Shown piece by piece: positions 7,993-25,539 of a stretch of DNA of 25,539 nucleotides; position 1 is the first letter of the stretch, and every line of letters begins with the position of its first letter. The DNA is from Spirogloea muscicola. Its lineage: Eukaryota; Streptophyta; Zygnematophyceae; Spirogloeales; Spirogloeaceae. The stretch spans positions 691-26,229 of the forward strand of contig WELB01000188.1 of assembly GCA_009602725.1 (NCBI GenBank), written 5' to 3'. The notes beneath the pieces are model-generated. The model made no database searches and was not told the origin of the DNA. It saw nothing but the letters and a program-made list of their open reading frames with translations. Made by a program: the position numbers and the translations under genes.

Positions 7993-10900
7993 ATGTCAAA
8001 GGAAGGCCAGCCCGGTAGGAATGGGCAAGAAGGGGACACCGGCGCTGGCTGGCTGAGGCCCGCGCGCCTCTGGTGGCGGAGCCGGAAAGGGGCGGAGGGG
8101 GGGGGCCTGGCCAGCCCCTGGCCGGGCACTGCTGCCCGTTGCCGGGCCCGACCCCCCCCCTCCCCCCCGTCGATGTCCCTCAAGCTCCCCGCTTTCCCCC
8201 CCCGCCTGCCTGCCTGCCTCCTGCCCCATCCCTGGAGCTGATCCTCGAATGTGTCCCCCGCAGGGCGTGGCTGGCAGCCGCACTGCTGCTGCTCTGCGGC
8301 TTCGCGTCGCAACAGGCGAGGCGCCAGGTGAGCCAGCAGCCAGCCAGCACACCCGCCAGCCAGCAAGCCGGGCAGGCTCTCCTGGCATCACGACTCTGCA
8401 CCTGCTCACAGCGGGACCATGCCTATACTGCCAGCCGCTGAGCGCTCAGCCGCTCGCTGCTGGCGTTGTGCCGCAGGACGCCAGCGGCCACAGTGTGCTG
8501 GTGCAGGGGCGCTGGGTAAGGATAGGGAGGCACACCGGCGGCCACGTGGAGGTGGACGACGGCAGCAAGCCGTTTGTGCAGCAGGAGCGGGCAGGCGATG
8601 CCCAGGCCGCGAGCGAGCATGCCGCGCACACTCGCGCCAAGAGCTGGTGGGGCAGGCGGGAAGCCTCCCAGCCAGGGGCGCCCTGGCAAGCAAGTGCTGC
8701 TGGAGGAGGATGGTGGCCCTGGCGGAGCATTGCGAGCTGGAAGGGGGGAGGAGAGCAGGTGCCCACGGCAGCGCAAGCGCCGCCCGTGGTCGAGAAGGTC
8801 AAGACTCGGGCCCGCCGAAAGAGAGTGCTGCCTGACTTCATCAAGGCTGCCAACTCGTGGAAGTTTGCGGGCTCCCTGGTGGGCGGCCAACCAGACCAGG
8901 AGGATGAGGGCGAGGAGTATGGGGAGGACGAGGCTTCTGCCGCGTCCAAGAAGGAGGAGCCCGCATTTGTTGCCGTCGACCCGGCCAGCAAGGTGGCCAT
9001 CTGCCTAGCAGGAGGAGCTCGGGATTTGGAGCTCAGCGGTACCAGTCTCATGGAGCACCTGATTCCCGCTTATGCTGGAGCTCATGTCTTCATTCACACC
9101 CCCCTCGATCAGAACACACACAAGGTGAGAGCAAGTCGCTCCCATCGTCCACACTGGTGATCTAGCAACATGGTCTGCAATGTTTTACCTCCTCCCTACC
9201 CATTCAGATACCAGCTCGACTTGTTAGGGCCTTGCTTACCTGCACCATGCGCTGGGCGTAAGGCAAGGAGACAATGTGAGGCTATCTCAAACGCCTGTCC
9301 AAGACCGTGCAGCTCTGCCATGTGCAGGAGCTCTGTTGCCCACACGGTTGATATCTTTAAGCATGTGCTTTCTCACTAAATCTTGCTGTACTTCACATGC
9401 ATGGCTGGCCAGATATCAATGCTCAGAGGGGCCAACATAGCCGGTGTGCGAATATTTCTGCCAAGAGGAAACCTGAACAAGACAGTGAGCAAGGTGCTTG
9501 CCCATCATTGACCCAGTGCGCCAATGCTATTGAAGCCATCTGCACATGTAGCTGCTCTCAAGCTGTTGCATGGAAGGCTCTAAACCTATGTATGCTCTCC
9601 TCTTCTGCATGAAAGCTCCATGTTCTCATGCACTTGCTTTACTCAGCAGTGGTGTCCATGTTCTCTCCTGTAGTTTCTGCCAATCAGAGCGTCCAAGAGG
9701 TAGAAATTGTGCAGCCAAAATTCATGTGTCTTTCTTAGCCAGAGGTACTGTGGACCTTTTAACTGAAACAGGGGGTGCTGGAGGAGCTCATTGCGCCAGG
9801 TTCACCATCTGGGACGACCGGTAATCACAGATCTGCCCTTCTGCTTTGGCTTGTACATCCTCGTACATCACCTCGCCAGTATGCTGACACTGAGCAATCA
9901 CTTACAGTTCTGGGCGTGTTGGTCTGTCCCTCTTTCGGCTGCTACTCAGGCTTACTGATGTACTACCTTCTCGTGGAGGGCTGCTCGCTTCTCATCGACG
10001 ACTATGAGGAGAAGCATGGAGTCCAATTTGATTATGTGATATGGACTCGCCTTGACACGTTCTGGGAAGGACGACCACCTCCTCTGCAAGACCTGGACAG
10101 GTGCCTAGACTGAATTCTGCAAACTTATCTCTTTTAAATCTCTCTTGTCTGATATGCAGCTGAGGGAAGAGCATGATCTGTATTAATTTGACAATCTGAG
10201 TGCTGAGGGGGTCATTCAATTGATAATGGTGATGCTCCGCTTGCTCTGGTACCTGACACAAAGGTGATGACAGTGAAGTGGCGTGGCTTTGCCCTGCGAC
10301 AGTCGCTATTACTACTTGCCCAGTGGCAAAAGTGGCACCGACTTCGGAGGTGTCAACGATCGCCTGGGCATTGGGCCGCGCAAGTACAGTCAGTTGGCCA
10401 TGCGGCGTCACAGTGTTCTGCACGAAGTGCACATCCGCGGACGTCGCGGGTATGCTCCTGCACTGAGTATGACATGAAGGGAGGCCTCCCTTCATGTCAC
10501 TCACCGTGGAAGACATTTTGCAGATTCCTGGAGCCATTGGAGACCAGATGTGTACAACTTCCAGTCTGCTACTGAGCTTGTATAATCTGGCTGCAGGCTT
10601 GGGTCGGAAGGCATTTTCCAGGCACAACTGGAGCTTTCAAACGTCCCCGTAAAGCGTGCAGACTTTCCATTCTGCATCCCAAGCCACAGAAAGTTTGAGT
10701 ACCCCCCTGAATCTGCAGCAGTTGCTCCGATGGGCACGGCAGACGCATCGAATGGTGTGTACTGCCGTCCTTGTGAGCCAGCGCCAGAGCTCCCCGAGAC
10801 AGTGAAAGTCAAGTGGGACCTGGAGAGCTTCTGCGATGCACGTGGCGATTGGATGGAGGAGTGGGAAGAGAATTTTGACGAGGTCATCAGCTTACATCTT

Positions 10901-11472
10901 ATCTCAAATGGACTGTCGTGCTTCTTAGCTGGCTATTCGTTCACTTATCAGCTCCATCCTGTGGTCGTAAAACCTGCTTCAGGTGCATGGCTCCTTACAA
11001 AACCTTGTCAAATAGTCTGATAAAACTCCTTCGCTTCTTGAGCAGCTGGCTGGCCAGGTAGCAGCCAAGGCACGGCAGTACTTGAAAGCGCGAGGGGAGA
11101 AGCAATGTCTCAAGGACATGATGGCATTTATTGCCACAGTGGACCTTTGGCAGGGCTTCTCTGCAACTGGCATATGTCGGCGAGCAGGAAATGAAGATCA
11201 GATTTACAGGTGAAAATAGAGAAATAACCTCGGAGAAGCACGAAGGTCGCTGACTTTGTAGATGAGCAGCTTCTTGGCTGCTTCTTAATCAAATCTGCTA
11301 CGTGCAACAACGCTTTCTCTTGGAACCTCCTACCCAAGCCAGAGGACTTTCTTGCAGGGCACTCTATCAGCTGGCACTATCTGCCAGCAGCATGGAGTTC
11401 TCTGGAAGACTTGCTTCTGGTAGCGTGTTGGCTGCATTCAGCACATTTGTGTCAGATATTATCAGATCCTGA
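7993..11472 (+). CDS. DUF7796-like type II membrane protein
   Basis: Ten exons proposed: 7993-8072 and 8264-8327 (both tentative), 8477-9124, 9413-9493, 9772-9820, 9950-10100, 10303-10449, 10597-10882, 11046-11209, 11358-11472. All phases agree, giving about 594 residues. Exon 2 codes a signal anchor (AWLAAALLLLCGFA). A variable linker precedes the domain, which starts KVAICLAGGARDLELSG (about residue 220). It continues with HTPLDQN, AGVRIFLPRG, LLVEGC, YVIWTRLDTFW, GGVNDRLGIGPR, FPFCIPSHRKFEYPP, CRPCEP and FCDARGDWMEEWE. This order matches, from memory, plant proteins annotated DUF7796, whose biochemical role is undefined; a glycosyltransferase-like fold is suspected. The start codon is uncertain because the anchor frame has no upstream ATG without the first intron. 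An optional in-frame intron (8516-8758, 243 nt) also fits. Confidence 0.82.
10470..10499. repeat. Perfect 30-bp palindrome in an intron
   Basis: TGACATGAAGGGAGG is followed directly by its exact reverse complement, with no spacer. It lies within the 147-nt intron 10450-10596 of the DUF7796-like gene. As RNA it could fold into a 13-bp stem with a small loop; as DNA it could extrude a cruciform. Confidence 0.95.
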
Positions 11473-12932: not shown

Positions 12933-15473
<2,541 letters not shown>

Positions 15474-15584: not shown

Positions 15585-15657
15585 CGCGCCAGACAGGGGT
15601 CGAACCTGTGACCTTTTGCTTAGGAAGCAAACACTCTATCCACTGAGTTACAGGCGC
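15585..15657 (-). tRNA. trnR-CCU: tRNA-Arg (anticodon CCT)
   Basis: 73 nt on the minus strand, starting GCGCCTGTAACTCAGTGGAT. The anticodon stem TTTGC/GCAAA encloses the loop TTCCTAA with anticodon CCT, reading AGG. The T arm is ACAGG-TTCGACC-CCTGT, and the acceptor strands GCGCCTG and CTGGCGC pair except for one T-T. No intron and no encoded CCA. The internal B box (GGTTCGACCCC) is at 15607-15597. It lies 111 bp upstream of the CLPR4 start codon on the same strand. Confidence 0.95.
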
Positions 15658-24125: not shown

Positions 24126-25539
24126 TCATCTGCTCGGGTCGCGGCGGCCGTTGCCGGATCCTCGGGGCCCGCCGAGATACTGCTCGAGGTACGGGTCAGC
24201 ACCTTCCCCCGCGTCGCTCGTGCCCGCTCCCGACGGGTCTCCGAAGAGCCGAGTCCTGTCTTGGCCAGGGTCGGGGTCCGGAGGCGGCAGCATCCGCGCC
24301 ACAGGCGGCTGCAGCGACAGGTCCTCCGGCCGGAGGCCGTCCCGCCGCCTGCTTCGATCCGACGGCCCGGCACCGTAGTCGGCAGGGTGCCCCGGGTCTC
24401 TGACGCCGGTCGGCTCTGCTGCTTCTCGCCATTGCATGTCCCGTTGCAGGAAGAACTCCAGCTGTGCCCGCAACCGGCCTAGCTCCTGACGCGTACCCTC
24501 GAGCTCACCCAGCGCGCTGTGCAGCCGCTCCTGCATGCCGCGCAGACGGACGGGCCCGCGTGAGCCTCGTGGATGCCTGCCTGCAGCCCCTGGCAAGGGG
24601 ACGCTTATCCCCGCACCGGGGCCGCGCTGGACGGACCACCGCCTGACACCTCGACGCTGGATGCGCCCACCCTACGCCGCTCGCGGGCCCTGCATTGGCG
24701 CCAGAGGCCCTGCTGCAGAGACGCCCCCGCTGGGCTGCGCAAGTGCACGAGACACTTCTCGGGCCGAGCGCTAAGGTGGTTCTGCGGCGGCTGTTGCTCG
24801 GCGGAGTGGCGGCCGCGAACGGAGTGGGGCGTGGGGCCCCCCGGCCCGGAGGCGAAGGCGGCCAGCGCAGGACCGTGGCGGCCGGCGAGGGGCCGGGCGG
24901 GTGGGGGCAGCAGCGGACCCGGGTGTCGTTGAGCTCGGCCTCGAGCCGCACGAACCGGCCCTCGCTGCCGTGCACGGGGTTCTCGATGCGAGCGTTCGCC
25001 TCCCGCGACAGGCTGCACAGCGCGGGCTCGCCGAGCGGCAAGGAGGGTCAGCTCCACTGCCCCGGGGCTCCCCGTGAAGGGCCGAGCAAGGGCGGGCCCC
25101 CACCGCTGCCATTGCGAGGGCATCGGGCGGGGCGCGGCGAAGAGGGCAGCACCTCTCGACGGTGTCGGCGCGCGTGGCCGGCGGCACCTCGTGCAGCATC
25201 TTGGTGAGGTTGGCGACGCCGAAGACGCGGTGCACGTTGGCGAACTTCACCGGCTGGTCCGCCGGGAAGTGCGGCGCGAACAGGCAGTCCTGCGCGATGG
25301 CGAGGCGGGGCGGCGCCGTGAGGGCCGGCACCGCGCGCCGCGCGCGGGGGCTGCCAGGGGACGCAGTGGGGAGGCGGGCGGGGGGCAGCATTGCCGGAGG
25401 CCGGCGCGTGGCCCAGGGAGGCGCGGAACGGGAGAGGGGGCGCACTCTGGAGCACTTGCGGCGGAGGAAGCGGCAGGCGGCGCAGGCGAAGCCGCCGGCG
25501 CCGGGGGGGCCGCCGGGGGGAGGCGGGGGCCCGGGCCCG
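24126..25539 (-). CDS. LOB-domain (LBD/AS2-like) transcription factor, 5' partial
   Basis: Four exons (minus): 25539-25446 (cut by the window), 25289-25153, 25012-24919, 24530-24126. They give 242 visible residues with all phases matched. After a Pro/Gly stretch comes the C block CAACRFLRRKCSRDC (19-33), an exact CX2CX6CX3C zinc-binding motif whose last Cys is supplied by exon 2. Then follow LFAPHFPADQPVKFANVHRV, the GAS-like block FGVANLTKMLHEVPP...RADTVESL, and REANARIENPVHGSEG. Across the exon 3/4 junction, L-X6-L-X3-L-X6-R nearly matches the plant LX6LX3LX6L coiled coil (last Leu is Arg). A helix ELGRLRAQLEFFL follows, then a disordered tail. LOB proteins are DNA-binding regulators in plants. 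The start codon and upstream exons lie outside the window. Confidence 0.9.

Follow-up and report, generated by a model that had tools for sequence, protein, structure and literature searches.

The window, by which we mean the whole 25,539-nucleotide stretch of DNA that was analysed, carries in its last 1.4 kb, on the minus strand, a LOB-domain gene that is complete except for its 5' end. We conclude with high confidence that this is a nuclear gene for an LBD transcription factor with class I affinity and that its host is a streptophyte alga of the Zygnematophyceae type; the most likely species is Spirogloea muscicola, a proposal based on copy number and genome type. The gene (hereafter C188, as its contig) was modelled by setting splice sites at GT-AG junctions common to the sister copy on contig C398, those of exons 2 and 3 being also common to the paralog C16, yielding the following features:

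25446..25496, minus strand: exon 1, from GGF to CSR (CAACRFLRRKCSR), with donor GTGCGC, identical in the sister copy C398
25153..25289, minus strand: exon 2, with the last Cys of the C block, FAPHFPADQP and the GAS-like VHRVFGVANLTKMLHEV, CAG acceptor and GT donor
24919..25012, minus strand: exon 3, 94 bases as in C398 and C16, with the SLSREANARIENPVHG block and the first part of the coil
24126..24530, minus strand: exon 4, with the remaining coil (ERLHSALGELEGTRQELGRLRAQLEFFL), the tail and the stop codon (at 24126), CAG acceptor common to C398
24426..24530, minus strand: coil portion within exon 4, with five heptad-spaced Leu in a run starting at the end of exon 3

All three introns are GT-AG, exon 2 measures 137 bases in C188, C398 and C16, and the predicted exon junctions rest on conservation between the copies. 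The spliced C188 protein comprises 228 residues and lacks its N-terminus; the reading frame of exon 1 is open up to the window edge, and the start codon is lost in an assembly gap. We searched for the gene start by extending the contig, where N begins just beyond the window (8871 of the 9901 extracted bases), and a 6434-aa "open frame" at the 5' end of the gene is best read as this N gap. The start was also sought in C398, whose sequence is interrupted at about the same place by a poly-A stretch and N.

The spliced protein was searched against the LOB profile PF03195 and matched with 115.1 bits (E-value 2.4e-33, curated cut-off 24.2), which bears out the proposal of an earlier note on this DNA that a LOB-domain protein is encoded in an alga; exon 2 by itself scored 52.6 bits in the whole-genome profile search. 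We also performed a PDB search using as a query an earlier splice (108.5 bits against PF03195) that is unlike the final model at two junctions, and the sole match up to an E-value of 0.001 was Ramosa2 (5ly0, E-value 5.9e-30). The protein contains the CX2CX6CX3C zinc block (CAACRFLRRKCSRDC), with CAACRFLRRKC-SRD-C spanning the junction of exons 1 and 2, and its FGVAN (GAS block) and NPVHG (DPVYG-like block) align with plant members, the literal Gly-Ala-Ser of the GAS block being Gly-Val-Ala here. The perfect CX2CX6CX3C, the FGVAN of a GAS-like block and the DPV-like ENPVHG described in the earlier note are all found in the spliced model. By analogy with plant LBD proteins, zinc binding and DNA contact would fall to the CX2CX6CX3C block, and dimer formation to the leucine coil that follows it; we infer sequence-specific DNA binding and dimerisation as the probable function.

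We then searched the genome (153 Mb, 471 contigs) with PF03195, yielding 17 matches at 13 loci, which were grouped by sequence into A (C188, C398), B (C16, C38), C (C112, C205), D (C122, C259, C32), E (C66:525925, C47) and F (C46, C66:516832), with three copies in group D and two in each of groups A, B, C, E and F. Loci of the same group share aligned pieces, those longer than 1 kb being 75-93% identical. Spliced domains from six of the 13 loci were scored against PF03195, giving, in addition to the value for C188, 112.2 bits for C398 (group A), 131.6 for C16 (B), 86.5 for C112 (C), 79.0 for C122 (D) and 37.9 for C66 (E). Group C was assigned to class II because it is 71-72% identical to AtLBD37 (provisional sequence), and groups A and B go with class I.

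The C188 and C398 domains are 47-54% identical to three class I domains (the Arabidopsis rows being provisional sequences), as against 29-31% to AtLBD37 (provisional sequence) and 30-36% to the class II LOB of the same genome; identity to Ramosa2 (5ly0) is 54% over the LOB domain. A tree of 13 rows, in which 6 of 10 inner branches are open, was used for class affinity only alongside this identity table. By sequence comparison the C188 protein is closer to class I than to class II sequences, and we term it class I-like since it lacks the full LX6LX3LX6L zipper. It has the same C block, GAS region, DPV-like block and leucine coil as land-plant class I LBD proteins (Ramosa2 5ly0; Arabidopsis LOB and AS2), but FGVAN where plants have FGASN, Thr (C188) or Ala (C398) in place of the second zipper Leu, and a coil that goes on in both copies as five heptad Leu. 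The paralogs C16/C38 have FGVAN and the exon lengths of 137 and 94 in common with C188 (55% identity), whereas C16 has a complete LX6LX3LX6L and the C16/C38 type is 61% identical to Ramosa2. Class II LBD proteins (AtLBD37) belong to the same family as C188, the class II member of this genome being C112/C205.

For host placement, we used a plastid contig (C392, 56.9 kb, 34% GC) that carries matK (95 bits against MatK_N in the genome search), whose 493-residue protein matched MatK_N with 79 bits and Intron_maturas2 with 77.4 bits. By eye, trnK(UUU) is split, with its 5' half upstream and its 3' half downstream of matK, and a group II intron domain ends immediately before the 3' half. Genes named by eye on this contig are psbA, which adjoins matK/trnK, chlI, odpB, a tilS/ycf62-like gene, chlB and ndhC/J/K. 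In the best 60 of 171 PDB matches, PsaA scored highest against 8htu (1649.5 bits), 9lut (1647.1 bits) and 6l35 (1633 bits), as against 1605.1 bits for 6ijj; we take 8htu and 6l35 to be from moss and 6ijj from Chlamydomonas. According to an excerpt of PMC1277820, Staurastrum, Zygnema and Chaetosphaeridium have chlI, odpB and ycf62, all of which Marchantia lacks; with chlI and odpB, C392 resembles the charophycean algae. As excerpted, PMC4877394 describes trnK introns without a matK ORF in Coleochaete and Klebsormidiophyceae, and no trnK intron at all in Mesotaenium, Cylindrocystis and Zygnema. The intron of this plastid sets it apart from these three early-diverging zygnematophytes and counts against the proposed placement. 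Gene content and the matK-bearing trnK intron therefore mark this as a streptophyte-alga plastid outside the groups listed in that excerpt.

Nuclear evidence came from genome searches for NAC (PF02365; 38 matches, many of them weak, the best at 99.7 bits) and GRAS (PF03514; 92 matches, the best at 121.9 bits). The same search of 14 control genomes, which possibly include no plant or alga, gave 0 matches for LOB, NAC, GRAS and MatK_N. GRAS matches occur in threes with like scores and spans, compared unaligned (C53/C160/C91, C10/C239/C162 and C28/C27/C180), and so do two apparent other Clp subunits, while ClpR4 was found on C188 and C398 only. A genome triplication is reported for Spirogloea muscicola in the excerpted parts of PMC7994812 and PMC12866927, and a triplicated genome would account for loci that come as pairs and triplets. 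Searching the PDB with ClpR4 was uninformative about the host, the best chains all coming from one entry pair. Several weak NAC-domain matches per contig were seen on C21, C264, C348 and C9, possibly arrays of divergent NAC-like genes.

The presence of matK in a trnK intron and of NAC, GRAS and class II LOB genes makes the host a streptophyte. The earlier note had raised a possible chlorophyte host, with an earlier LOB origin or a transfer as the consequence, and had itself named a streptophyte host as the result that would speak against this; with such a host neither consequence is supported. A chlorophyte LOB gene, whether inherited from deep ancestry or acquired from a streptophyte, is extremely improbable: the window by itself does not name its organism and the gene has divergent features (FGVAN, and Thr among the zipper residues), but matK in the trnK intron, 13 LOB loci that include the two plant classes, and NAC together with numerous GRAS genes stand against it, and a single transferred gene fails to explain the complement of LOB, NAC, GRAS and matK. 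A chlorophyte host, or transfer into one, is refuted unless the plastid and transcription-factor contigs are contamination, and the possible chlorophyte origin of the LOB family is struck from the open claims.

In the streptophyte host, a LOB gene is expected from published dating. As excerpted, TAPscan v4 (PMC11712027) traces LOB1 to the common ancestor of Klebsormidiales with Phragmoplastophyta and LOB2 to that of Anydrophyta, and PharaohFUN (PMC12866927) dates LBD and NAC to Klebsormidiophyceae plus Phragmoplastophyta and GRAS to Anydrophyta; in these excerpts GRAS and class II LOB thus go back to the ancestor that Zygnematophyceae share with land plants, and LBD overall to an older streptophyte node (PMC11712027, PMC12866927). 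An alfalfa study, as excerpted, gives 0 matches in its five green algae (PMC10003661). We found no paper on the C188 LOB gene in the open-licence literature, and the gene may well be in a published gene set. The added value is small and consists of an algal LBD set for comparison with land plants, in which the two plant classes and three divergent groups are represented.

C188 and its sister copy C398 agree in exon structure, ClpR4 lies on both contigs, and the window aligns to C398 over 3.9 kb with 88% identity. In the spliced sequences (by eye), the LX6LX3LX6L positions read L-T-L-L in C188 and L-A-L-L in C398, so the class I zipper is incomplete in both and complete in the paralog C16. Both copies have five Leu at heptad spacing, in a run starting at the end of exon 3 that was reached in 3 of 5000 protein shuffles for C188 and 4 of 5000 for C398. 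The earlier note had placed Arg at the fourth zipper Leu and suggested a pre-plant form of the dimerisation helix; the spliced model with sister-shared splice sites has Leu at that position, and the C188 variant is not pre-plant because another LOB gene of the genome, C16, has the plant LX6LX3LX6L spacing. We therefore reject the reading of a pre-plant, Arg-bearing zipper.

A class I variant specific to this lineage, whose dimer helix would use continuous heptad Leu in place of LX6LX3LX6L, is a tentative possibility: the five Leu are kept in C188 and C398 while the rest of the coil changes, and Thr or Ala occupies the second canonical position, but Leu still stands at three of the four canonical positions and the comparison is within one zygnematophyte genome. 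Doubtful, and more speculative, is a zygnematophyte-specific class I LBD branch whose GAS block reads GVA and whose coil runs on through five heptad Leu, in a genome that also holds three divergent LOB groups with C blocks intact or nearly so; if it is real, its dimer partners would differ from those of land-plant LBD proteins. The overall dN/dS between C188 and C398 is 0.75, with values of 1.13 for the LOB domain, 1.68 for the coil and 0.49 for the tail, all from small counts; purifying selection is therefore not shown overall, in the LOB domain or in the coil, and one copy may be relaxed. We consider it unlikely that C188 is a duplicated class I LBD gene that is relaxed or in decay following polyploidy. 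The values above 1 in the LOB domain and coil would agree with such decay, as would the failure to find a third copy of the C188-type LOB or of ClpR4 in a search across the genome, and the state of C38, a copy of the other class I gene, with a premature stop in the final exon and a C block missing at an N. Yet the frame, the four zinc Cys, the splice sites and the five heptad Leu are retained in C188 and C398, and the tail value of 0.49 also argues against it. Our preferred reading remains that of a class I-like LBD gene expected in a zygnematophyte.

The remaining LOB groups were also inspected. Group D (C122, C259, C32) is divergent with an intact CX2CX6CX3C (C122, 79 bits against PF03195); by eye, the intron before SLIYEA is kept, the intron within the C block is absent, and C122 has four Leu at a spacing of seven after the LOB domain. 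In group E (L017:4926-5096 on C66 and L021:4946-5113 on C47) the C block is present and the second half falls outside the LOB profile match; a fragment of this group on C46 (L016:8379-8465) is absent from the whole-genome PF03195 matches. Group F (L016:4936-5130 on C46 and L019:4833-5024 on C66) is divergent, with SCTSCR...C...SCPFTGT..., and each of its loci has group E sequence a few kb away on its contig. On both sister contigs of group B (C16:399412-415275 and C38:88816-104323), the class I LOB gene is about 15 kb from a NAC gene, and the C38 LOB copy has a damaged look.

Elsewhere in the window, we found exons of a DUF7796 (PF25072) protein on the plus strand (8057-9157 and 10586-11017), exons of a ClpR4-like Clp protease subunit on the minus strand (13577-14647), and a tRNA gene on the minus strand (15585-15657), downstream of a long CA repeat at roughly 14900-15120.
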